Shown here one piece after another: positions 3,101-51,056 of a stretch of DNA of 64,000 nucleotides (positions are counted from its first letter, which is position 1; each line of letters starts with the position of its first letter). The stretch covers positions 248,001 through 312,000 of the forward strand of contig NC_079235.1 of assembly GCF_028502605.1 (NCBI RefSeq), given 5' to 3'. The position numbers and the translations under genes are program-made. Below the pieces are notes generated by a model that was given only the letters and a program-made list of their open reading frames with translations, had not been told where the DNA came from and ran no database searches. This DNA comes from Trichoderma breve. Taxonomy: Eukaryota; Ascomycota; Sordariomycetes; Hypocreales; Hypocreaceae.

Positions 3101-4685
3101 ATTGGGACTGATTACTAGACAGACTATCCACCAGCTGTGTAAGAAGACTACTGGGTATGGAACTGGTGGCTCTAGGACTGGACATGGGGGTAGTTTTCTC
3201 ACGGCAGCCAGAAAAGGAAGCTTATCCCACTGGACTGGTCAGTGTCAGACTGGATGTTCTCACCGGCATCGCAGACGTTGAAGTTTGTAATAATCTGACC
3301 TCTGGTGCGCACGAGATAACATTGATAGTCGCATGAGGGCATAGCCAAGAGCTGCGCATCTGCTTATTTCGCCCACTGTACATCAGTCCATGTCGGTACT
3401 TTTCAATTGACGTCAGGCGATGATCCTTTTGTCGTATATAAACCAAGATGCCAAGATAGCCTGAAGCCACAAAGACAAATAGAGATAGAATTAGTATTTT
3501 ATTGACAACATCAATATAAAAATAAACCAGGTGCATGCAAACAAGGCACAATCCTCAAAAACCAAAAGCCTCGGTCGCCCATCCAGAAAAAAGCACGCGA
3601 CCTGGTCGTGTCTCTGCCCAATCAGCCCTTCCAGAACCCGTCGATCAAGCCCACTCGGCACGCCAAATTGCGCCGCCTCCTTGATGCCTCGCCCCCCTGA
3701 CAGCCTCCATGTCCATCAAAACTGTCGGGATTCTCGAAGCCAGCCACGGACGGTTAGTGGAAGGCTGAGCGGTGGGGGGAGGAGTTTCGCAGTTTTAGGT
3801 ATTACAGCACGGCACAGGCACAGGCGCTGCAGTTCTCGGAAAGGCGTTCCGCGGGTTCCAGGTTGCTGAAAAGATAGTTATCGAGAGGTCTGGCCCCCCG
3901 CATCAAAGTGAGACATTGAGGCCTGATATCAAGGCAACAGATGCAATCATCGGGTCTCATCCATCCATCTAATCGAAGTTACGAGTTCGCCGCGTTGCAG
4001 CGGCTACAGCACCCGCGCCAGCACCCGCCACACCTCGTGCCCTGTATTTTCCCGGCCCAGTGGGCGCATCCCACTAAACGACTAAACGGCGGCCCATCCT
4101 TAGCGGCCATTCCCCCCTCCACAGGCGACAGCCGCCGGCCAAGCCAGCGCCCCATTTCCCCTAGTGCTAGCTCCATCTCTCTGTACCTGTATTCAGCTAC
4201 TCGTACTGCTGGAGCCTCACGATCCAACCGACTCTTGTCTCTCCTCCATCATTCACTCGCCTCGACTCTCCTTTTATCCAACCCGCATTAGCTGCCCTAC
4301 ACTCCTTTGGGCTTCTTCTGCGCTTTCCTAGAGCATCGTTCTTTTTTGCCGCCTGTCCGCTTTCGCTTGCGAGCAATCTCGCCTATCGACCATCACCTGA
4401 GCATCTTCTCTTTTGCTTCCTCTCTTCCTCTCTTCCTCTCTTCCTCTCTTCTTCTTCTCTTTTCAGCATCCTCATGGGAGCTTGCGAGCAGCCCTGTTCG
4501 AGTCGCTTCCTCAAACATCAGCGCCGGTCCGCCAAGACCAGCTGCTGTGCGACTCTCTAATCATTTCACGTCGCTCATCATCTACCACGAGTACCGTCCA
4601 TCTTTGTCCTCGCCTCCTCGCTTTCGCCTCCTCCATCCTCCCACTCGAGCGACGACGATAAACGACTAATCCTCACGACAGCGCC
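183..4685. other. gene-free stretch ending in a pyrimidine-rich leader
   Basis: I see no convincing gene in these 4.5 kb. Open frames up to about 157 codons exist (for example 982-1455 on the minus strand), but they show no recognisable domain, overlap one another on both strands and have no supporting splice structure. The last 600 bases (about 4080-4680) become strongly C/T-rich, which is typical of the promoter and 5' leader of the large gene starting at 4686. Confidence 0.5.
4392..4461 (+). repeat. CT microsatellite (TCTTCCTC repeats) in the leader of the sulfatase-like gene
   Basis: Near-perfect tandem copies of an 8-base pyrimidine unit (CTCTTCCT) grade into CTTCTT tracts about 225-290 bases before the ATG at 4686. 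Pyrimidine tracts of this kind are common just upstream of fungal transcription starts. Slippage could make the length vary between strains. Confidence 0.7.
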
Positions 4686-7280
4686 ATGGAGTCGCCCGCT
4701 GGCAGACGGCTCGATGCCTCCCCCTCCCCCTCTCCCATACATCACCTCGGCATGACGCGCCGTTTCGCACACGCCGTTGCCTCGCGCTTGACCCGTCGAC
4801 GGTTTATAGCCAATCTCGCCTCCCGCTTCGCCAACCGACGGTTCGCCTTTGCTGTCGCAACCGTCGCCATCTTCAGTGCCAAGGGCGTTCACATCTACAC
4901 ACATCTGTCTTCACTGCCGCTGGTTCACCTGGTGCGGTGGGGATATTCATTCTTTGCGCAGGATGTCATGCTGCTCATCCTTGTCCGGCTGCTGCTTGAC
5001 CCGTGGTTGACGGAAGGCTCTGGGTGGTTGCGCACTACCACAATGACTCTGGCGTCTGTAATTATCACATATCTCATCACCGTAGGGGTTGTGACAGTGA
5101 CATTCTTTGCCGTCTGTGGCTCCGAGATCCACTGGCGCAACATTGGCTTGGCTGGTGATGCCTCCTCCTTTGCCATGTTTCTCTCCGGCCTTGCGTCATT
5201 AATCCTAGTCCTGTTCACCGTTCTCTTTGTCGCATGCATCTTGCAAGACATCTGCTACGTAACCGCCGGCGTGGCTACCGATATTCTCAAGTGGCCTATT
5301 AACTTCGCCTTGCGCCGATCGTCGCCCACCGCCTACTCTCAGGTACCTCAACTTGACGTTGAGCTTGCCAGCACATCCGACGATCTGGACGACGACGAAT
5401 TCTGCGGCATGAAGAGCAAGACATCGGCAGTTGTTCTGAAGCGATTGCTATACCTCTTCATCGGCTTGGCACTCCTTACACATGTTGTCATGGTTTTGAT
5501 ACGCCCGAATGAGAGTGCCATGAATTTCTTGTCATGGACACCTGCCCTCCTCCCTTTCATCGACTTCACATTCTCCTCTCCCAGCCTTGATCATCTGAAG
5601 CCCATCTACGGATCCAGCATTGGCCACTCCTGGGACAACATCACTGCTCTGACCGACCCTGTTGATTTGCCTTGGCTGCCTCAGAGACATGTCCCCGGAT
5701 TTGGAGACTGGTATAAGAACAACAAGCATTACAACGCTGCTGCAGACCCTCTCAAGATTTCCAACTTCAATGACGATCTTCTTCCGGCGCTCAAGGATAA
5801 GCTTGCCGATGTGCCGATTCGCCATGTCATGCTCATCCTTCTCGAAAGCACGCGAAAGGATGTTTTCCCCATCAAGAAGGATGGCCTTATCTGGGAGCGA
5901 CTGGCCAACTCGTTTAGCAACAAGACTTTACCTGACGAGGCTCAAGCCATGCTGGCTGGTCTCACTTCCAACGCCAACTTCATTACCGGCGACTACGATG
6001 ATGGGTTTGAGCACGAAACTAAGAAAAGGCGAGGCGGTATCAACTTTAACAACGTCTTCACCACCGCTACCTATACCATCAAGAGCATCGTTGGCACAAT
6101 GTGTGGCCTCACGCCCCTCATGGCAGATTTCAATTTGGAGTACCTCCACCACTTTTATCAGCCGTGCCTACCCCAGGTCTTTGACGCCTTCAATAAAATA
6201 GATGAGGAGGATCTTGGCAGCGAGAGGAGTGAAGATTTTACGTCTTTCAAATGGCAGTCCACCTTCATGCAATCTGTCACCAAAAATTATGATAGATATG
6301 TGCCTCTTCTATCCAAGATGGGTATTGCTCCCGAAAATCTCGTCTCCAAGGAATATCTCAAGAGCCGATTTGCCAAGTTTGGTCCCGTGGATCAGCCAGA
6401 TATCAACTATTTCGGTATGGCTGATGTCGTCGTTGAGGACTACATCCGAGACGCCTTTGTACAAGCCAAGAAGAATAACGAGCGAGCCTTTGTCACACAT
6501 CTAACCAGCACGAGCCACCATCCGTTCGCAATTCCAGCCGAAGAGAAGTATACGCCTTTAGGAAATGGCTTGGACGACATTTCCCACTATCTCAATGCCA
6601 TCGGCTACGACGACCGATGGTTGGGCAAGATTATGAATATTCTGGATGAGGAGGGTGTTGCAGATGAGACTCTTGTTGTTTTTGTTGGTGACCATGGAGT
6701 GTCTATGCCCGAAAACAACATCTTGGCGCCTTACTATAACCCCAACATTGGCACACTACGTGTTCCTCTGGTCTTTTCACATCCCAAACTACCGGCAATC
6801 GATGTCAACGACGCTGTCATCTCCTCACAAATCCTCCCTACCATTCTTGACCTCCTCCGCGAAACTGGATCGCTTTCCAAGTCGCACACACAGGCCGCTT
6901 CCGACTTGGTCCAAAACTACGAAGGCCAATCGCTCATCCGGCCTGTTCACACATCCTCCAACGAAACCGGCCAGGGTAACTGGCAATTTACCGTCGTCAA
7001 TCCAGGCCGCGCGATGCTGAGCATCCGCGACACCCGTCAGCCGGATTGGCACCTCATCGTGCCCATCATCGACAACGTCGAGTGGCAGTTTACGAATCTA
7101 ATGAATGACCCGACGGGAGCGCAGACCCTGCTCGGGTTCGACTTTGTTAATTTCTTGTACAGCGTTGAGAAATCTCACGGCGTCGATGCCGCAAAATGGG
7201 CCGAAGAAGCTGCATTTATGGCCCGGTGGTGGGTCGAAGAGAATGGGAAGCGATGGCGTTATGGTCCCTATGCCAACTAA
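4686..7280 (+). CDS. membrane-anchored sulfatase / LTA-synthase-like protein
   Basis: An intronless 864-residue protein of the alkaline-phosphatase superfamily (sulfatase fold). The N-terminal third holds about five hydrophobic membrane segments (roughly residues 50-66, 88-106, 118-142, 155-185, 250-270). The rest is an extracytosolic catalytic domain. Visible core motifs are a metal-binding strand near residue 380-392 (VMLILLESTRKD), a TATYTIKSIVG segment near 459 where LTA-synthase relatives carry their nucleophilic Thr, and the metal-binding FVGDHGVSM near 666. This architecture resembles bacterial phosphoglycerol/phosphoethanolamine transferases (LtaS, MdoB) more than soluble sulfatases, because the classical C/S-x-P-S-R sulfatase signature is absent. 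The substrate cannot be read from sequence; transfer or hydrolysis of a head group at a membrane or wall glycan is an inference. The start is the first ATG after the pyrimidine leader. Confidence 0.85.
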   Translation: MESPAGRRLDASPSPSPIHHLGMTRRFAHAVASRLTRRRFIANLASRFANRRFAFAVATVAIFSAKGVHIYTHLSSLPLVHLVRWGYSFFAQDVMLLILVRLLLDPWLTEGSGWLRTTTMTLASVIITYLITVGVVTVTFFAVCGSEIHWRNIGLAGDASSFAMFLSGLASLILVLFTVLFVACILQDICYVTAGVATDILKWPINFALRRSSPTAYSQVPQLDVELASTSDDLDDDEFCGMKSKTSAVVLKRLLYLFIGLALLTHVVMVLIRPNESAMNFLSWTPALLPFIDFTFSSPSLDHLKPIYGSSIGHSWDNITALTDPVDLPWLPQRHVPGFGDWYKNNKHYNAAADPLKISNFNDDLLPALKDKLADVPIRHVMLILLESTRKDVFPIKKDGLIWERLANSFSNKTLPDEAQAMLAGLTSNANFITGDYDDGFEHETKKRRGGINFNNVFTTATYTIKSIVGTMCGLTPLMADFNLEYLHHFYQPCLPQVFDAFNKIDEEDLGSERSEDFTSFKWQSTFMQSVTKNYDRYVPLLSKMGIAPENLVSKEYLKSRFAKFGPVDQPDINYFGMADVVVEDYIRDAFVQAKKNNERAFVTHLTSTSHHPFAIPAEEKYTPLGNGLDDISHYLNAIGYDDRWLGKIMNILDEEGVADETLVVFVGDHGVSMPENNILAPYYNPNIGTLRVPLVFSHPKLPAIDVNDAVISSQILPTILDLLRETGSLSKSHTQAASDLVQNYEGQSLIRPVHTSSNETGQGNWQFTVVNPGRAMLSIRDTRQPDWHLIVPIIDNVEWQFTNLMNDPTGAQTLLGFDFVNFLYSVEKSHGVDAAKWAEEAAFMARWWVEENGKRWRYGPYAN

Positions 7281-7533: not shown

Positions 7534-8371
7534 TCACTGAGGTGACAAATTGCCAGCTTTTCTTTTGATGGCCCAGTCACGAACTTTGTCAAAGTTTGCA
7601 CATGTTCTGCTTCCATTAAACACAGGTCGCAGGAGACCCTCAGAGTCTGTTCGGAAAGGCAAAATGTCAAGGCTCGGCCTGCACATCATTGACTGACGAA
7701 TATAGTCAATACAATGTTCGAGATGCGCTGGAATCGTGTGCTCATTCGCCGGACTGTGCACATCATACCAATCCTTCAAGACACCGTACGCCTGCATACG
7801 AAGCATATCCAAGCAATGCAGCTGATGAAATACTTCTACTGCGCCGACGTATAGCGGAGGATCTGATTCTCGAGTATGATCATCGATGAAGAGGGAGCTT
7901 TTTGAGGGGAGTTTGGCATGTTCTTGCTCCGTCAGGGCGACCATGCCGGGGTGTGTGAGTTTATCCCAGTGCGCATTGTTGGTTTCGTTGGGTTTGCCTT
8001 GGTATGCTGACAAGTCAGGCGTGAAGCCTGATGTGAAGTGCGTCTCGCTGTATGAAAGGGCCGGGTATAGAGGACCTTTGACAGAAAGATGTGAGATGGT
8101 TACTCTTTAATATTGGAGGGCAGTTATACATACTCGTGAGATCTGGATAGCTTAGGGTGTCTGCCTGTGGTCTACTTCTCAGAAAGAGCAGTGAAGAGAA
8201 TGCAATTATCCAAAACACTCCGAGGACCCCGTGAATCCAGACGAAGCGGATCCTTCCAACATTCTGTCTGAAGGAAGATGTATCAGGAAATGACAGAGAT
8301 TCTCTTGATGAAGAATCAGCATCTCCGTTAGATACAGGCGTGTACTGAGTTTTGTCCAGCCACAGCGGCAT
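7534..8371 (-). CDS. UstYa-like (DUF3328) oxidase, candidate RiPP-modifying enzyme
   Basis: Two exons, 8371-8134 and 8075-7534, are joined across a 58-nt GTATGT..AAG intron and give 259 residues. A single transmembrane anchor lies near residues 43-65 (VWIHGVLGVFWIIAFSSLLF). Both family hallmark motifs are present: HQLHC at about 163-167 and HLEHCIDYIRQ at about 197-207, matching the paired HxxHC signature of UstYa proteins. In known dikaritin pathways (ustiloxin, phomopsin, asperipin, cyclochlorotine-type) these copper-dependent proteins oxidatively cross-link side chains of a ribosomally made, Kex2-processed peptide. Here a secreted repeat precursor lies 2.7 kb away, transcribed from the other strand and pointing away. 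No second UstY paralogue is visible in the window, so the enzyme may act alone or its partner lies elsewhere. The family call is secure; the link to the precursor is inference. Confidence 0.9.
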
Positions 8372-10955: not shown

Positions 10956-10964
10956 TATATATAA
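10956..10964 (+). promoter_or_regulatory. TATA box of the repeat-peptide precursor gene
   Basis: TATATATAA lies about 111 bases before the ATG at 11075, followed by a C/A-rich leader (ACACCCAACACATCCC). The spacing fits a TATA-driven, probably strongly expressed fungal gene. Confidence 0.6.
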
Positions 10965-11074: not shown

Positions 11075-11521
11075 ATGAAGTTCACCTTGATTTTCGCCTC
11101 CCTCCTTGCCCTTGCGGCTGCCGCCCCTGCCCCCAGCGAGGTCAGCACAGATGCGTGCCTCCTAAAGCGTACCGATGGAAACTTCCTCGTAGAGCGAGGA
11201 GGTGGCTGCGGTTATTACGGAAAACGTTCTGAAGCCAGTACCGACGCTTGTCTTCTGAAGCGTGTCGTCGATGGCTCTTACAGTATTGAGGCCCGAGGCG
11301 GCGGCTGTGGATATTACGGAAAGCGATCTGAGGCTTCTACCGACGCCTGCCTCCTTAGACGGGAGGCTGATGGCAAATACACAGTTGAAGAGAGAGGTGG
11401 TGGCTGCGGATACTATGGAAAGCGTTCTGAAGCTAGTACCGATGCTTGTCTGCTAAAGCGTGAGGCCGATGGCAAGTTTGTTCTCGAGGAGCGCGGCCAC
11501 GGATGCGGATATTACGAGTAA
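11075..11521 (+). CDS. secreted repeat-peptide precursor with Kex2 sites (candidate dikaritin/RiPP precursor)
   Basis: A single exon of 148 residues. Residues 1-17 form a secretion signal (MKFTLIFASLLALAAAA). Four tandem units follow (about 24-51, 52-84, 85-117, 118-148). Each unit has two conserved blocks separated by dibasic sites: STDACLL ending in KR or RR, then a variable acidic spacer leading through a single Arg to GGGCGYYG followed by KR. The last copy reads GHGCGYYE and ends at the stop, so it needs no C-terminal cleavage. Kex2-type cleavage would release four short Cys/Tyr-containing peptides and four STDACLL peptides. This layout matches Kex2-processed repeat precursors such as those of ustiloxin, asperipin and epichloecyclins, where UstYa proteins modify Tyr-containing cores; such a gene lies at 7534-8371. 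The GGGCGYYG core matches no product family I know. An alternative is an unmodified secreted signal peptide. It does not look like an alpha-type pheromone, which has a W-C..C-W core. Confidence 0.85.
   Translation: MKFTLIFASLLALAAAAPAPSEVSTDACLLKRTDGNFLVERGGGCGYYGKRSEASTDACLLKRVVDGSYSIEARGGGCGYYGKRSEASTDACLLRREADGKYTVEERGGGCGYYGKRSEASTDACLLKREADGKFVLEERGHGCGYYE
11144..11518 (+). repeat. four tandem in-frame ~99-bp repeats inside the precursor gene
   Basis: The four coding units (84, 99, 99 and 93 bp) are conserved at both blocks. Synonymous differences are scattered through them (for example GGAGGTGGC, GGCGGCGGC, GGTGGTGGC), so the protein motif is being kept while the DNA drifts. Purifying selection on the peptide core is an inference from that pattern. 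Confidence 0.85.
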
Positions 11522-12232: not shown

Positions 12233-12644
12233 ATGGCAACAATCTTCAAGCTCATATTTTATGTTCCGGAGACCCATATCGAAGTCTGCAAAGCAGCCAT
12301 CTTTGCGGCTGGAGCTGGTCGCTACCCAAACAGCTCTTACACAGAGTGCTGCTGGACAGCCCTGGGCACCGGTCAGTTTCGCCCGGTCGCTGGGGCGAAT
12401 CCGCATATCGGGCAGCTGGATAAGCTTGAAACTGTCCCCGAAGTACGAGTTGAGGCGCCCTGTGTGGGCCAGGATGTGACAAAGAAGGCTGTGGAAGCGT
12501 TAAAGAAGTATGTGTATCCGACAGTGCTAAAATAAACATCTTTATTCTATCAATACCGAGTTCAGTTTATCTAATATGATTGCTTCTAGGGCCCACCCGT
12601 ATGAGGAACCGGCATATGAAGTGTATAGACTTGAAGATTTCTAG
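12233..12644 (+). CDS. stand-alone NIF3/YqfO-like domain protein
   Basis: Two exons, 12233-12507 and 12590-12644, are joined across an 82-nt intron (GTATGT..TTCTAG) and give 109 residues. The beginning (KLIFYVPETHIEVCKAAIF, AAGAGRYPNSSY) and the end after splicing (KKAHPYEEPAYEVYRLEDF) match the small ferredoxin-like domain that is inserted in bacterial NIF3/YqfO proteins and exists alone in fungi. GTGQFRPVAGANPHIG is the other family signature. The splice is well supported, because only the spliced form restores the conserved HPYEEPAYEV ending; the unspliced frame stops 10 codons into the intron. Its biochemical role is not established; binding of metal or a small ligand is often proposed. 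It sits next to the repeat-peptide gene but has no obvious functional tie to it. Confidence 0.85.
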
Positions 12645-12902: not shown

Positions 12903-14307
12903 TTATTCGGGATTAGCATACACCGTGTAAAGCTCCCACGTTTTAGGTTCTGGTTTATCCAAACTTGTTATGAACCCCAGGTTGCCCGCATTCCAGAACC
13001 AATCGGGGTGCTCCTTGCTCCGGTATCTGTTTGTCCCACGCGCAAATTGAATGGCCATTTTGTGGAATCTCCATCGATTCCGGACATTCGGGAGGTCTTT
13101 TTTCACACAGGTCAGCATATAATGCCGCCAGTCAATATCGGCTTGCCTTGATGACGACGTGTCGGTGAGGATTTTTGAGACCCAGCTGTTGTCGCTCCAG
13201 TCTGCTGGTGTAAAAGGTAGCATCCAGCCAAAGTTGCGCATGGCACGTAAAAAGAAGTTTTGCCGTTTGTGAATGATTTCATCATAGAACCAACGGTCCA
13301 CTTGAGCCAATGAGAGAAGACTTTGCGCGGCAATAATGGCAGATGGGGCTTCGAATGCTTCTCGAAGGGGGCCTTTCCCGTTAGCCCCTTCTCCCTCGAT
13401 TCTCTTATTTTGCTTCAATTCTTCTTTAATGACATCTGTGGGTATTTCGACAATGTAGTTGAGAATGATGTCGAACAACTCCGTAGTGTCGAAAACCTTT
13501 CGGTATTTTAATGATGAGGCTTTCACTCCGCTTGATTGCAAGGCCTGTGGTGTTGGGAGACGAGTCGGCCTTGACAATAACCATTTTGTATCCTCCATGC
13601 TCTCTGGATCGTACCACCTTGTTTGTGGAAGGTCAGGCTGGTCTAACGGTGGCCATTGGCGCGTTATAGCATATTCAAAACTCTGCCCGCTTCTCTCTTG
13701 CATGTCATAGTAGTTAACGCAATACAGAAGCCCATTTAGTTCGCCACCGTACATCCGATAGCACGAATTCTCTTTGTAGACCGACTCCCAGAGCTCACGG
13801 GGGTTGATGCCGGTATGGCGACAGAGAAAAGACAGACACATGGGATGGATCAAAAGAAATAAGTCAGAGCCCAAATGTAGTTTATCTTTGACACCTTTAA
13901 TGGTAACATCTCCATACGACCCGACTGTGCTGTAACGGAAATGGGTAAGCGAAAGATGTCGCACAGCTGTTGTGAAGTAGAAACTCACCAGAGTGCAGTG
14001 ACAAAAGTTTCGGGCGAGTTTGGCGTCACACTGACGCCCAGATCCCAAGACTCACCATCCCGATCCGATATGGTCACAATCTGATCCAGCGGTTGTGATG
14101 GAACTGGGTATCCAGGGTCATTGAACCACTCTCCATCTCCTGGTGGCCATTTGTCAACAGCGACACCGTCAGTTAGAAACCGAAGCCAGCCACGCCGTGC
14201 ATTATCCAATGGACCAGAGCTGATCACCTCAGTTAGTAACAAGAACTAGCGTTGACGATGCGGGGTATGTCTTACCAGAAGCAACAGAATGAGTCCCAGC
14301 AACCCAT
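12903..14307 (-). CDS. unrecognised fungal protein with F-box-type N-terminal cysteine motif
   Basis: Three exons, 14307-14276, 14219-13989 and 13929-12903, are joined in frame and give 429 residues. The first exon encodes MGCWDSFCCFC, which splices to SGPL. This resembles the MGC..C.ICGGPL start common in a large family of fungal proteins often labelled F-box-like. The central block (HPMCLSFLCRHTG, then ELWESVY) is also typical of that group. The body is tryptophan-rich and has no catalytic motif I can name. No canonical F-box helix is clear by eye, so function is left open. Both introns have GT..AG ends (56 and 59 nt). The gene points toward the NIF3-like gene and shares the 3' side with it. 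Members of this family are often lineage-specific and duplicated. Confidence 0.7.
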
Positions 14308-14958: not shown

Positions 14959-16738
14959 TCAAGCTTCTTGAGCCTTTTTAGAAACGCGGTGGTAAACAAT
15001 CACGTTTGTTCCATCTTTAAGAGGCTCGTTGTGCGGCACCAACTTGTATCCTCCCAACTTGGGGGCTGCTACCCACCAGACAAGCCAGTAGACAACAGAC
15101 GCTGCCAAAATTGATATGCCCACAACAGCATAAAGCCAATATGGGAGGCTGGTATCACCCTTTCCTCCCGGAGGTCTCAAAAATGGAGCCACAAGCTGGA
15201 AGGCTTGTCCAAGCATGAAGAATGCCGCGACGGGCAACCACACTTTGAATGGTCGCGGCGCCTTGGGCTCTTTCCAGCGGAGATAAAAGAGGCCCGAGAC
15301 TACAAGAAAGTTCATAACTGCGCTCGGGTATCCTTCTACGTCGAGGATGAAGTTGTAGGCGTCTCCGAATGGTATAGCAACAATGACGATGAACGAAGGG
15401 ATGAAATGCAAGATCAAGCCTGCAGACGGGGAACCGAACGGCCATGATGAAGCCCAGAATCGTGGAAAGGGGATAACGCCTTCCTTTGCGAGCTCTTGGT
15501 TCACTCGAGATTGCGCAAAGGTCACGGTCATTACATTTCCGTATGCTGAAAGAGCCACAAGAACACTAGAGAGTAGTTAGCAAACCGAGATGACTGAATA
15601 TTGATAAGAGATTCGAAACTGACCTAAGTGCCCTCTGGGCAGCTCGCCCGAACACTTTTTTCATAAAGAATGAGGCGACTGTGGTTCCGCTTGCTGCGAT
15701 TTCTGCAGGCGTTGCGGCAGAAAAGTACGCCACGTTTGCGAGGATATACAGAATCCCACAAGTCGAGAGACCCAGTGGACCAGCAATCTTGATAGTTCGG
15801 ACGGGATTCTTTATTTCATTCATCACGTACATTGCGTTGCTCCAGCCTGTGTAGGAATTCAGCACCTTGAACAGCGCTGTTGCATATGGGTTGCCGGACT
15901 TGGCGGACCCAGCGAAAGCATCGTGAAAGCTTGCATGAGGGTCAGGCACTCGAGAAACACCGCCCCCAAGGACCACCCATCCCGTAATGACAATAAACAG
16001 GAGAAGGATAAGTTTCAGAATGGTAAAAAAGTTCATTCCGTGAACTCCAAGTTTTGGGACGAATGTATGGATCAGAGTTACGGAGATGATGACTCCAATG
16101 GCAATGCCTCGTTCTGCCCATTCTGTGACTGTTGTATTGGCTGCCACCAAAATATTTGATGCAAAAACGATGCAACCAGAAGCTGTATTTCCAGTTAGTC
16201 CTTATTCGTCATCTCTCGTGTGTTTATAAGCTTGGCTTACCGGTGAAGCCAAGTGCAATCGCTTGAACCGCAAAGACTGTGGTGATTAACATTTTCGGCC
16301 GACGATATGCTGCTTCGAGATATACTTTCTCGCCGCCGCTTCGAGGAATCATGCATGCAAACTCGAGCCAGACGCAGAGTCCCGACACAGACAGCAAGAG
16401 CCCCAGCACCCATAACATCATCGAGGCACCCAATGATCCGACGCCATTGACGATTGAGGAGGGGGTAGAGAATATTCCGGTACCGATGATTCGTCCGATG
16501 CTATCGTCATATCATTCATTAGCTTTTGTGTAACGTCTAGGACTATAGAAGATTCCTACATCAGAGAGGTTGTGCTGAAGATGCCCAGATGGCGCCCTAG
16601 TCCTCCCGTAAGATACTGGTCGAACTGCAATCCTCCAACCTCCTCCTTGAATTCATTTTCGGAGACGTGCGTTCCATTGTCGGTGGCGCCGAATACTGCT
16701 TCACCTTTCGAATGAGTTGGTGAATCGATGGCAGCCAT
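14959..16738 (-). CDS. amino-acid permease (APC superfamily, methionine-permease-like)
   Basis: Four exons, 16738-16560, 16500-16241, 16182-15624 and 15565-14959, are separated by three introns of 58-59 nt and give 534 residues. The spliced junction of exons 1 and 2 restores the APC signature IIGRIIGTGIFSTPSSI at the first membrane helix. About twelve hydrophobic segments follow, including FFTILKLILLLFIVITGWVVL and a NEIKNPVRTIKIAGPLG loop that is characteristic of the LAT/MUP branch. The last exon holds the final helices and a basic tail. In fungi this branch includes high-affinity methionine permeases, which import amino acids at the plasma membrane by proton symport. Exact substrate is not readable. 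The gene is complete, with no frame damage. Confidence 0.88.
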
Positions 16739-47138: not shown

Positions 47139-48986
47139 TCAGGACTTGGGCGGGTTTTCCACAGTCTCCTCCACCGCAACTTCACCCTGCTCTGACTCTG
47201 GCACGTTCTCATCCGCCTGCTTATTCTTCACATCCGCCAGGCCGTAAATCACAATGCTGATGATGCCGATAATGGCGGACAGGATAGAAAACACAAGCGC
47301 AACGATTCCTCGCGCCGTGAATCCATCGGGGATCCAGCCCGGCTGGGCAGCCTGGTTCTTGAGATCGAGGAAGTTTGCTGTGTCAGCTGCGGCGTTTCCA
47401 TTAGTGAGAATTCCAGCGGCCTTGCAAACGTCGAGGTGATCTTGGGGGATCTTGATGCGCTCCTGCATCTGCTCGGGGGCCTCGATCAGGATCATGGCCA
47501 GACCGGAAGCAAGATGCCAATCGATGTGGCAGTGGAAGATCCAGACGCCGGGGTTGTCGGCAACGAAACGCATGACAAAGTAGCCTTGGGGCGGCAGAAC
47601 GAACGTGTCTCTGCGGGCCGGGATCTTGGGGAACGCGGTGTGGTTGCTTGGGTCGTAATAGACAGGGTCTCCGTTCAAGTAGTCGTAAAAGTGAGGCCCA
47701 TAGGGCGGCGCACGATCAATGACCTGGAAGTTGTGGCCGTGAAGATGGAACGGGTGTGAGCCACCGTCGGCGTTGTTTACCACGATCTGCACGACATCGT
47801 TGTGGTTGAGAACCATTGGATGTGTGAATTCGCCGTAGATCTCGCTGTTGGCTACCAAATCTCCAGCAGACATGGCAGTGAAGAGAGATGGCACCTTGGG
47901 CTTGGTGTAAGAGATGTTGTTCAGGAATGCGTAGCTGAATCCCGTGTTTAAGTTGTTCATGATGACCGTCACGTTAATCTCCAGATCAGGCTCGGGGAGA
48001 AGCTCCATCTTGTCCACAGGCACCAGTGTAATATCGTCGAAGGGAACGAGCTCCGTGGCGTCAGTGACATTGATTGTGGCCTGTGGGTGGTCGGCATTCT
48101 TGTTGTACTCCAGCCAGTTGGTGTTGTTCAGTTGAAGATCGTCGGGGATACCATCGAGCAGGGCAGAGTCCGCCACGGTGACAATGGGATAGTTCGTTGT
48201 TGTCTCGTTCTTGGTCGTCAGGAGGATCGCATATCTCTGAGCGACAGCAATGTAGAGAGTGTCAGCCTCGGTAGGCTCCGTGTATACACCATCGATTTCC
48301 ACAATTTTAAAGGTGTGGCCTTCGATGTAGAAGTACTGCGCAACAAAGGCACTGATGTTGATGAGTCGGATCAGATATGTCTTGTTCGGCTCGACAGGGA
48401 GGCTGGTGTTCATGGTATCGTTGAAGAGGAAGGATGATGGAATAGGTTCTGCGCCGGTAGGGTTGTACACAGACATGAACTCTTCCGACAAAATGCCATC
48501 AACCATCTCGTGGTACCAGTCAGACAAGGTAACTGTAAACTCTCCATCAAACTTGAATGGCGCATGCTCGTCGTGCACGATGAGCGCCTGGCGGTAACCA
48601 TCGGGGTAGCAGTAGTCTGTGTGGCAGTGATACCAGTAGGTGCCGTTCTGGTTCACAGTAAAGTTGTAAGTCATGCTCTGTCCAGGAGGCACAGGGCACT
48701 GCGTGACCATGGAAGCGCCGTCCATGTGGTTTGTGGTGTTTTGGAACATGCCGTGCCAGTGGATTGAGCACGGCCTGTCTCCAAGGCCATTGTGCATGTT
48801 GACGACGAGCTGATCGCCCTTGTCAACCTCAATCAGAGGCAACGGCCATTGGTTGTTGATTCCAACAACTTTGCGCTCCGCCAATCCATCAGGGTTGGCC
48901 GTCACCCAGGTGACATTGAAGTCGTATGTGACTGTCTTGGCCTGGCAGCCAAGGGCCGCGAGAGCCAGAACCAAAAAGCGCTTCAT
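47139..48986 (-). CDS. FET3: FET3-type multicopper ferroxidase
   Basis: An intronless 615-residue protein. I start it at 48986 because the open frame upstream has no ATG, and this Met opens a clean signal peptide (MKRFLVLALAALGCQA). Copper ligands are visible in order: SIHWHGMFQNTT, GTYWYHCHTDYC, SHPFHLHGHNF and WIFHCHIDWHLASGLA. Multiple N-x-S/T sequons fit an extracellular domain. A single C-terminal membrane anchor (GIVALVFSILSAIIGIISIVIYGL) is followed by an acidic cytosolic tail, the arrangement of Fet3. It oxidises Fe(II) to Fe(III) at the plasma membrane and hands it to the permease Ftr1, whose gene is divergently transcribed next door. Most fungal laccases lack this anchor, which separates it from that family. 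Confidence 0.94.
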   Translation of the reverse strand: MKRFLVLALAALGCQAKTVTYDFNVTWVTANPDGLAERKVVGINNQWPLPLIEVDKGDQLVVNMHNGLGDRPCSIHWHGMFQNTTNHMDGASMVTQCPVPPGQSMTYNFTVNQNGTYWYHCHTDYCYPDGYRQALIVHDEHAPFKFDGEFTVTLSDWYHEMVDGILSEEFMSVYNPTGAEPIPSSFLFNDTMNTSLPVEPNKTYLIRLINISAFVAQYFYIEGHTFKIVEIDGVYTEPTEADTLYIAVAQRYAILLTTKNETTTNYPIVTVADSALLDGIPDDLQLNNTNWLEYNKNADHPQATINVTDATELVPFDDITLVPVDKMELLPEPDLEINVTVIMNNLNTGFSYAFLNNISYTKPKVPSLFTAMSAGDLVANSEIYGEFTHPMVLNHNDVVQIVVNNADGGSHPFHLHGHNFQVIDRAPPYGPHFYDYLNGDPVYYDPSNHTAFPKIPARRDTFVLPPQGYFVMRFVADNPGVWIFHCHIDWHLASGLAMILIEAPEQMQERIKIPQDHLDVCKAAGILTNGNAAADTANFLDLKNQAAQPGWIPDGFTARGIVALVFSILSAIIGIISIVIYGLADVKNKQADENVPESEQGEVAVEETVENPPKS

Positions 48987-49362
48987 CTTGAACACAACTG
49001 ACTTTGGCTTCTCCTCTGCCACCTCCGGGTGAGTGTGGGTGTGTCAAGGTTGATATCTATTTCGGCACCGACACAAGGGCACCAGAGAGACTAGGTCAAA
49101 CTTCTCTTCTCCCCAACACATTCCGAGGTCAATTGCCAATCAATCAGATAATCAATCCCTACCCACGACAACGAAACGGAGAAAAAGAAGAAAAAAACTA
49201 AGTAATCCCCGCAGGCTAGATGAAAATTTCTACAGCAGTTGTGCCGACCATCGCAGCACCAGATCCTTGTTCTCACGACCCGAAAACGAATTAAGGCCCG
49301 TTTAGACTCACAGCGAACCCCCCGAGGCGTTCAATAGCTCTGCCGAGTTGCCGTTTGGCGTG

Positions 49363-49560
49363 ATCAGATAACTATGTTTCGGCCCTGTAGTTGAGCCATT
49401 TTCCCTGATCAGATTATTTTGCCCACGATCAGATAACCCAAACGTCCCAAAAAGGCGGTTGGTGATGGTGGGCCACGGTGCCGTCTTAGCCGAAGCGCCG
49501 GAGCTGGAGATGCATCAACAGCCTCTGACTGGACGATTTTGTTATCTGATCATATCTGAT
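49363..49560. promoter_or_regulatory. cluster of ATCAGATAA iron-GATA sites in the FET3/FTR1 promoter
   Basis: The 904-base divergent region holds exact ATCAGATAA copies at 49363-49371 and 49428-49436, an exact reverse copy (TTATCTGAT) at 49542-49550, and near-copies at 49408-49416 (ATCAGATTA) and 49552-49560. The consensus ATCWGATAA is the known target of SreA-type GATA factors that repress iron uptake when iron is plentiful. The cluster lies 331-528 bases before the FTR1 ATG and 377-574 before the FET3 ATG, so one set can control both genes. Confidence 0.75.
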
Positions 49561-49890
49561 CATCTGATTTGGCTTGAGCCATGTTCAGCCCCGTTTCAAT
49601 GGTTGCTTCCGACCGGTGTCGAAATGATCCGTCGGGGAGCCAATTCGAGTTTCCATTACAAGATGCCCTTGCGGTTCCGGCTCAGGTCGGTTGGGGACAG
49701 CCGGGGAATAAAATTTTCCCAACCTTAACCAGTTCAATTCGTATAACATTCGCCCCATACAGCCTTGAATGGCTAAATATACTTAGATTGCCCATCGCCG
49801 TACCAATTGAACCAGCTCGTTTCTCTTCCCTCCATCTTTCAGCTCACCCAGTTTCTCTCTCTTGGCCTTGGGTGCCATCTGGTAGACACA

Positions 49891-51056
49891 ATGGCGAAGA
49901 ACGTGTTTGCTGTCCAGATTTTCTTCATGTAGGTTTATTTGTCAACACCTTGTGTTTAACCAAGTACTAATGATTGTTGAAAAGTGTGTTTCGAGAATGT
50001 TTGGAGGCGGTCATAATCATCTCCGTCCTGTTGTCCTTCCTCAAACAATCTCTCGGAGGACCAGACCAAGATCAAGCCATCTATAAACGCCTGGTCAGGC
50101 AAGTATGGCTTGGTTCATTTGCGGGTATCATCATCTGTCTCATCATTGGCGGTGGCTTCATCGGAGCGTTTTATGGCCTCGGCAAGGATATCTGGTCAAA
50201 GTCTGAGGATCTGTGGGAGGGCATCTTTTATCTGATTGCCACCATCATCATCTCCTTCATGGGACTTGCACTCCTGAGAATCAACAAGATGAAAGACAAG
50301 TGGCGTGTCAAGATCGCACAGGCCCTGGCCGAGAAGTCAGCCGAGTCAACCAAGAAAACCACTTGGCTCGGTGACTGGTCAAGAAGGCATGTCATGTTCA
50401 TCCTGCCTTTTATTACAACGTTGCGCGAGGGTGTTGAAGCCGTGGTGTTTGTCGGTGGTGTCTCTCTTAGCTTGCCTGCCACAGCTTTCCCTCTGCCCGT
50501 TGTTTGCGGTATCATTGCTGGTCTCGCTGTCGGCTTCTTCATCTACCGTGGTGGTAACCTCATGTCGATTCAAATCTTCCTCATTGCTTCCACCAGCGTT
50601 TTGTATCTGATTGCCGCTGGCATGTTCTCCAAATCTGTTTGGAGTCTTCAATACCACACGTTTGCCCAGCGTGTGGGCTCAGATGTCGCAGAAGAGGGCA
50701 ATGGACCGGGCTCTTACGACATTACTGAAACCGTCTGGCATGTCAACTGCTGCAATCCCGAAACCGATAACGGCTGGGATGTCTTCAACGCCATCCTTGG
50801 CTGGCAAAACACCGCCACTTATGGCTCCGTCATTGCTTACAATGTCTACTGGGCATTCCTGGTCTTGACTGTCTCTCTCCTCATCTACGAGGAGAAGACT
50901 GGATCATTGCCTCTGAAGAACCAATTCTTGAGTGCCATGTCCAAGGTCCCGGGACTTAGAGGATGGGCTGCAAAGAAGCGTGCGAACCAGAACTCGAATG
51001 TCAATGAGCACGAAGTCTTCCGACAGGTCCAAGCCGCAGGACTTCTCAGAGAGTAG
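49891..51056 (+). CDS. FTR1: FTR1-type high-affinity iron permease
   Basis: Two exons, 49891-49928 and 49985-51056, are joined across a 56-nt intron and give 369 residues. The tiny first exon encodes MAKNVFAVQIFF; the splice completes VFRECLEAVIIISVLL, the first REGLE-type iron motif (Arg16-Glu-Cys-Leu-Glu20). The second, TTLREGVEAVVFVGG, is near residue 160. Seven hydrophobic helices fit the family. Motifs DITETVWHVNCCNPET and GWQNTATYGSVIAYN are Ftr1-specific. It forms a plasma-membrane complex with Fet3, which supplies Fe(III). The head-to-head arrangement with FET3 is a conserved fungal gene pair, and the shared promoter explains co-regulation. Confidence 0.95.

Follow-up and report, generated by a model that had tools for sequence, protein, structure and literature searches.

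A repeat-peptide precursor gene beside a UstYa oxidase gene in Trichoderma breve, a probable two-gene dikaritin-type RiPP locus

A short, repeat-bearing reading frame lies in the window, the whole stretch of 64,000 nucleotides of Trichoderma breve DNA that was analysed here (contig NC_079235.1, positions 248,001 to 312,000). It raises the question of whether it encodes the precursor of a modified peptide and, if so, which enzyme would act on that peptide. The reading that we prefer, with a probability of roughly 75%, is that the locus is a minimal two-gene dikaritin-type RiPP system, comprising a Kex2-processed precursor and the UstYa oxidase that modifies it. The original prediction, made from the DNA letters, had proposed a dikaritin-like, Kex2-processed peptide, and this proposal gains support from an adjoining UstYa gene (131.5 bits) and from what appears to be the same pairing in two more assemblies. 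The precursor gene and a nearby element are as follows (positions of the window).

11075..11521, forward strand: precursor gene, 148 residues, one uninterrupted frame with ATG at 11075 and TAA at 11521.
10956..10964, forward strand: possible TATA box (TATATATAA), 119 bp before the precursor ATG, a sequence match only.

The coordinates and the sequence of the frame had been given correctly, and its translation bears out the proposed four units with GGGCGYYG as the core in three and GHGCGYYE in one. The units, of 31, 33, 33 and 28 residues, run STDACLLKR, spacer, core and KRSEA, the final unit stopping at its core. Tandem Repeats Finder reports a 99-bp unit in 2.9 copies (11191-11475, score 269), and when the precursor sequence beyond residue 18 was shuffled 20,000 times, a 5-mer never occurred four times. 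The N-terminus (MKFTLIFASLLALAAAA-PAPS) has a mean Kyte-Doolittle value of 2.27 over residues 4-17, all later 14-residue stretches being at or below 0.69 on the same scale; on this hydropathy basis the start is signal-peptide-like, as is typical of proteins directed to the ER. Seven dibasic sites (KR at 31-32, 50-51, 62-63, 83-84, 116-117 and 128-129; RR at 95-96) divide the precursor into pieces of 32, 19, 12, 21, 12, 21, 12 and 19 residues, dibasic residues counted. The precursor thus agrees with the KEP rule, which asks for Kex2 sites between repeats of at least 8 residues and for no piece above 100 residues (PMC7329392).

Nucleotide divergence among the units suggests that the array is old. 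Over all unit pairs (NG86), pS and pN are 0.79 and 0.082 in the core, 0.83 and 0.075 in STDACLLKR, and 0.85 and 0.397 in the spacer; in KRSEA, which is present in three units, they are 0.71 and 0.000. The largely synonymous drift that had been noted in the core is thereby borne out, and both the core and KRSEA are under purifying selection. The difference between core and spacer gives a Fisher p of 6e-9, a descriptive figure, as unit pairs are not independent. Because silent sites are nearly saturated between units, the copies appear to have been kept alike by selection over a long time and not by recent duplication or conversion. STDACLLKR is conserved to the same degree as the core.

The arrangement of cleavage sites is less simple than the original prediction, which had placed dibasic sites on both sides of the core. 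On the C-terminal side this holds, as KR directly follows three of the four cores and the fourth ends the protein. On the N-terminal side the residues immediately before the four cores are ER, AR, ER and ER, with a single Arg, and the closest upstream KR or RR lies 9-11 residues further N-terminal of these pairs. Strict dibasic cutting would therefore yield 17-19-residue peptides with the core at the end, together with the 10-mer SEASTDACLL, and not the octapeptide alone. The computed [M+H]+ values are 733.261 for GGGCGYYG (731.245 at -2H, 729.230 at -4H), 885.320 for GHGCGYYE (883.304 and 881.288), 1810.770 for DGKYTVEERGGGCGYYG (1808.754 and 1806.739) and 1009.451 for SEASTDACLL.

The gene on the precursor's 5' side is divergent, 2.7 kb away, and encodes the candidate modifying enzyme.

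7534..8371, reverse strand: UstYa/DUF3328 oxidase gene, 259 residues, two exons with a 58-bp intron at 8133-8076, defined by Pfam, splice and motif positions and orthologues.

Its second exon matches Pfam UstYa at 131.5 bits (cut-off 25; E 5.4e-38), and the protein has one hydrophobic stretch (44-63) and both halves of the HxxHC(x)nHxxHC motif (HQLHC at 163-167, HLEHC at 197-201). The precursor therefore has near it a UstYa/DUF3328 gene with this motif, as expected of a dikaritin locus, UstYa being the enzyme family by which dikaritins are defined. The genes are 2,703 bp apart, and the longest open reading frame listed in that interval has 106 residues. In CctR the motif is reported to form a two-copper site and to be required for activity, and CctR has been proposed to face the lumen of ER/Golgi-type organelles; the cyclase AprY is likewise reported to depend on copper and oxygen (PMC12435403). 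UstYa enzymes serve non-RiPP pathways too (PMC12048977). By sequence, the T. barbatum orthologue (P0003) matched no solved structure at E <= 1, and its structure model, with a mean pLDDT of 42, is too poor for use, block means of about 57-73 being reached solely by the transmembrane helix and the pair of HxxHC helices. Three proteins scanned with NCBIfam had no match.

The deposited T. breve UstYa record, T069G_06378 (P0004), is identical to the window's protein except for 19 absent residues. The model leaves out an in-frame 57-bp stretch (GVLKDWYDVHSPANEHTIP; region 7534-8106, reverse strand), whereas the UstYa models of T. barbatum, T. chlorosporum and T. compactum all keep it, with one to three changes; the deposited model probably removes coding sequence as a falsely called intron.

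The original prediction had looked to homologous precursors and an alignment of their cores, and a search of 5.8 billion protein sequences at E <= 10 found two among 2,565 candidates; the database is clustered at 90%, so that species inside clusters are hidden. P0001 is a Trichoderma barbatum hypothetical protein (83% to the precursor), and P0002 comes from a further assembly (73%). With P0001 as the query and longer proteins admitted, the same two matches alone were returned among 4,673 candidates. Both carry more than 90 additional residues ahead of the conserved MKFT start, probably because of mis-called starts. The protein derived here from the T. breve DNA was absent from the matches in both searches, though the T. 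breve UstYa is present in the database; the precursor gene is apparently unannotated in this species, and small precursors of this kind can evidently escape annotation. Apart from the T. barbatum hypothetical protein, the description of the peptide as undescribed holds in the literature and protein database searched: GGGCGYYG, DACLLKR, GCGYYG and HGCGYY had no match as text strings in that literature, nor was the repeat found in the texts searched, supplementary KEP tables lying outside their scope.

In the partly hand-gapped alignment of the 12 units of these three proteins, the invariant residues are D-A-C-L-L with an Arg two places on, D-G in the spacer, an Arg ahead of the core and, in the core itself, G-C-G and the second aromatic (Tyr); both Cys of each unit are invariant. 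The first core aromatic is Y in nine units and F in three, and the second core position is G in five, H in three, Y in two and S in two. The original prediction had made its case depend on conservation of the Cys/Tyr core and the KR sites; all 12 units do keep G-C-G-[YF]-Y and the Arg that precedes it, and P0001 retains KR at the end of the core, but P0002 has TR in its place, which by that standard goes partly against the proposal. One P0002 unit has FKR ahead of the core, the site being dibasic there in one unit of 12. The short spacer of unit 1 also occurs in unit 1 of P0001 and P0002, and in unit 3 of P0002, which again points to an old array. The Pfam family DUF7045 was considered for the precursor and rejected (21.2 bits against a cut-off of 27; 18.6 bits for P0001), P0002 matching other families instead, all below their cut-offs. 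The DUF7045 profile found no match in the genome, and as the controls were silent too, this absence proves little.

The two invariant Cys bear on another explanation, namely that the product is an uncut secreted repeat protein whose units are each held by two Cys in disulfides; a low-confidence model of the precursor even shows a strand pair per unit. The mean pLDDT of that model is 37 and it supports no fold, a weak test with three sequences only, and the seven dibasic sites run throughout the precursor. We regard an uncut protein as improbable.

UstYa orthologues were more widely found, with eight matches among 134 candidates (E <= 1e-20, database clustered at 90%): T. barbatum (87%), T. breve, T. 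chlorosporum (86%), T. compactum (73%) and four further clusters. The T. barbatum records of the precursor (P0001) and UstYa (P0003) are both on a contig of 1,524,856 bp, and those of P0002 and P0010, a UstYa first exon, are both on one of 5,677 bp. The precursor-UstYa pair thus appears to recur in T. barbatum and in the assembly of P0002, contig identity being judged from the equal sizes. The protein set (90% clusters) yielded for T. chlorosporum and T. compactum a UstYa orthologue and no precursor, perhaps because of an annotation gap or because the gene is absent.

Is the UstYa gene merely a chance neighbour? At least 46 UstYa matches, counted by exon segment, exist in the T. breve genome; extended by 3 kb both ways, they merge into 19 groups that take up 0.40% of the 38.5 Mb, which makes adjacency by chance unlikely. 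The window has one UstYa match, and the next listed on the contig is at 2.56 Mb. A scan for repeat frames, meaning those with three or more dibasic sites and a 5-mer present three times, covered 39 loci; 30 of these, several of them overlapping, surrounded UstYa matches and had flanks of 1.5 kb. Seven frames in four loci were positive, three of the seven being alternative frames of the same arrays; flanks of 1.5 kb would miss even the present pair at 2.7 kb, so the other UstYa loci are not cleared. Besides the precursor (L001), the positive loci lay in the following stretches.

G000:C7:1122011-1122400 (L039): alpha-pheromone precursor with five WC[YF]RxGxxCW repeats and degenerate CSQPGQACW and MCNSVGQPCW.
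G000:C2 about 4236385-4241500 (L002 and L040): second repeat precursor, with VASYEWK[KR] units (QSTDGVASYEWK[KR] type), beside the best UstYa match of the genome.
G000:C6 about 3197533-3203000 (L003 and L041): third repeat precursor, with a signal-peptide-like start, beside another UstYa gene; its units are mixed (TAVDPTNNQAGWG-[KR]R and DTSVDLADNEAGWG-KR), MKISQLLSLGLALLGAVDAAPVEQRG being followed by units ending in AGWG-[KR]R.

The repeat proteins of L002 and L003 adjoin the two other best-scoring UstYa matches, so that the genome holds at least two further pairs of repeat precursor and UstYa. These figures also bear on the explanation that the precursor gives linear, unmodified secreted peptides, hormone- or effector-like, and that the UstYa gene stands beside it by accident. 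In its favour, 6,120 of the 7,878 KEPs reported from 1,461 strains have no DUF3328 gene within 15 genes, against 1,758 that have one among their 15 closest genes (PMC7329392), and 'REA' follows the dibasic site in units 3 and 4, as in alpha-factor processing. The small share of the genome taken up by UstYa surroundings (0.40%, from 46 segments, a lower bound) and the pair's apparent presence in two more assemblies argue the other way, and we consider linear peptides unlikely.

The layout of the precursor, with a signal-peptide-like start, repeats, KR sites and Cys in the repeat, is also that of an alpha-type mating pheromone precursor. However, the locus with five WC[YF]RxGxxCW repeats lies on another contig, and the window's cores have no Trp and a single Cys, with no repeat of the W-C-x(3)-G-x(2)-C-W type. 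A pattern for T. reesei-like pheromone peptides had no match in the genome; a looser one had 12 against four in the reversed control, and five of the 12 were the C7 array, the other seven, which are scattered, being taken as chance. We take the C7 locus to refute a pheromone identity for the window's gene, which is scarcely credible.

Among dikaritin-type readings of the two-gene locus, the best is a pathway closest to that of asperipin-2a of Aspergillus flavus, which is grouped with the dikaritins and likewise has Kex2 sites in a repeat precursor and one UstY-family gene, its cross-link involving Tyr (PMC7329392, PMC9233826, PMC12186524, PMC12048977). Asperipin-2a, for which one UstY enzyme is used, has a Tyr-O to Phe-Cbeta ether link (PMC12186524), and co-expression in Aspergillus oryzae has been carried out for it (PMC10512285). 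Unlike asperipin-2a, the T. breve core has Cys and three to five Gly and is preceded by a single Arg instead of KR, and no reductase or transporter lies between the genes of the pair. Ustiloxins and phomopsins likewise derive from an ER-targeted multi-core precursor with a UstYa-type oxidase, but their pathways have two and five DUF3328 genes and a tyrosinase (PMC7329392), whereas the T. breve locus has one UstYa and the sole tyrosinase locus found in the genome is about 497 kb from the precursor. The 2016 five-gene definition of dikaritins (quoted in PMC12048977), which also names a methyltransferase, does not fit the T. breve locus in its tyrosinase and multiple DUF3328 genes. This narrow definition is not decisive, because asperipin-2a also has a single UstY gene (PMC12048977).

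Five dikaritins were reported in a 2022 review (PMC10512285). The dikaritin cores YVIG, YAIG and YVIP have no Cys. Like dikaritin precursors, that of T. breve has multiple cores, and these contain Tyr, as do those of ustiloxin, phomopsin and asperipin-2a; the second Tyr is found in 12 of 12 units of the three homologous proteins. The remaining reported dikaritin cores are not known to have Cys either. KEP type G-3, which has a DUF3328 neighbour and includes Trichoderma, is marked by a di-histidine motif (PMC7329392) that is absent from the T. breve precursor. DUF3328 has also been named in T. virens (PMC7303927).

The surroundings of the pair recall 'RiPP cluster 55' of T. reesei, from a study that describes itself as the first report of the potential of Trichoderma to make RiPPs (PMC7099791). 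That cluster has in a row a sulfatase, a nominated precursor of 109 residues whose positions 91-99 read KKAHPYEEP, and an amino-acid transporter. The window has counterparts of these three in the same order, with the UstYa-precursor pair between the first two.

4662-7277: sulfatase gene.
12233..12644, forward strand: gene of a 109-residue NIF3/YqfO PII-like protein (intron 12508-12589, spliced translation), outside the peptide system.
14962-16201: amino-acid permease gene.

As listed, cluster 55 has neither a UstYa nor a repeat precursor; glycosyltransferase and MFS genes occur in both regions, in differing order. The 109-residue protein of the window has KKAHPYEEP at 91-99 like 'gene G' of the cluster, gave no match in a Pfam scan (Pfam scans covered selected open reading frames of the window), and matched the NIF3-related structure 2gx8 at E 1.3e-20 over residues 5-107. 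From this homology we take it for a NIF3/YqfO PII-like protein rather than a RiPP precursor, and the nominated precursor that PMC7099791 analysed in depth looks NIF3-type here. Between the NIF3-type gene and the permease, an open frame of about 380 residues (12906-14051, reverse strand) has no Pfam or NCBIfam match. Farther away, a divergent multicopper oxidase (47142-49043, reverse strand) and FTR1 iron permease (49974-51053, forward strand) at 47142-51053 look like a reductive iron uptake pair.

On the two-gene dikaritin-type reading, T. breve probably makes a small modified peptide, and we infer expression, the order of the steps and a function for the products as follows. The precursor would enter the ER by its signal-peptide-like start and be routed through the ER and Golgi by its KR sites. 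In the lumen, the membrane-anchored UstYa copper oxidase would modify the GxGC-G-[YF]-Y motif of each repeat, where [YF]-Y beside the invariant Cys would be its natural target. A side chain of Tyr, or of Tyr and Cys, would most likely be cross-linked or oxidised. Kex2 would cleave after KR and RR, and further trimming, possibly with cleavage at the invariant Arg before the core, would set the exact core ends and free several near-identical small peptides per precursor, which would then be secreted. The conserved SEASTDACLLKR spacer may be a recognition sequence for the enzyme or a second peptide product; RiPP enzymes use leader and follower elements (PMC12048977). Since asperipin-2a, with its single UstY enzyme, carries a Tyr-O ether, we regard an ether link at Tyr as the cautious choice and a Cys-Tyr link as the bolder one. 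In the latter form, the single UstYa would join the core Cys to the neighbouring Tyr, or oxidise both, giving a Gly-rich, Cys-containing cyclic peptide with chemistry unlike that of the five listed dikaritins, and SEASTDACLL would serve as the recognition element; we put this forward tentatively, as about a one-in-five prospect in everyday terms. Counting against the two-gene reading are the lack of a dibasic site directly N-terminal of the core, the TR of P0002, the equal conservation of STDACLLKR and core, and the UstYa orthologues of T. chlorosporum and T. compactum that have no precursor in the protein set.

What is new, as judged from sequence, would be a precursor of the known KEP/DUF3328 kind with an unusual Cys in its core. 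If the reading is right, there would be a compact and testable peptide pathway in Trichoderma, members of which serve as biofungicides and in enzyme production, and the precursor, with its invariant Cys beside [YF]-Y, would offer DUF3328 copper enzymes a substrate that may show new cross-link chemistry.
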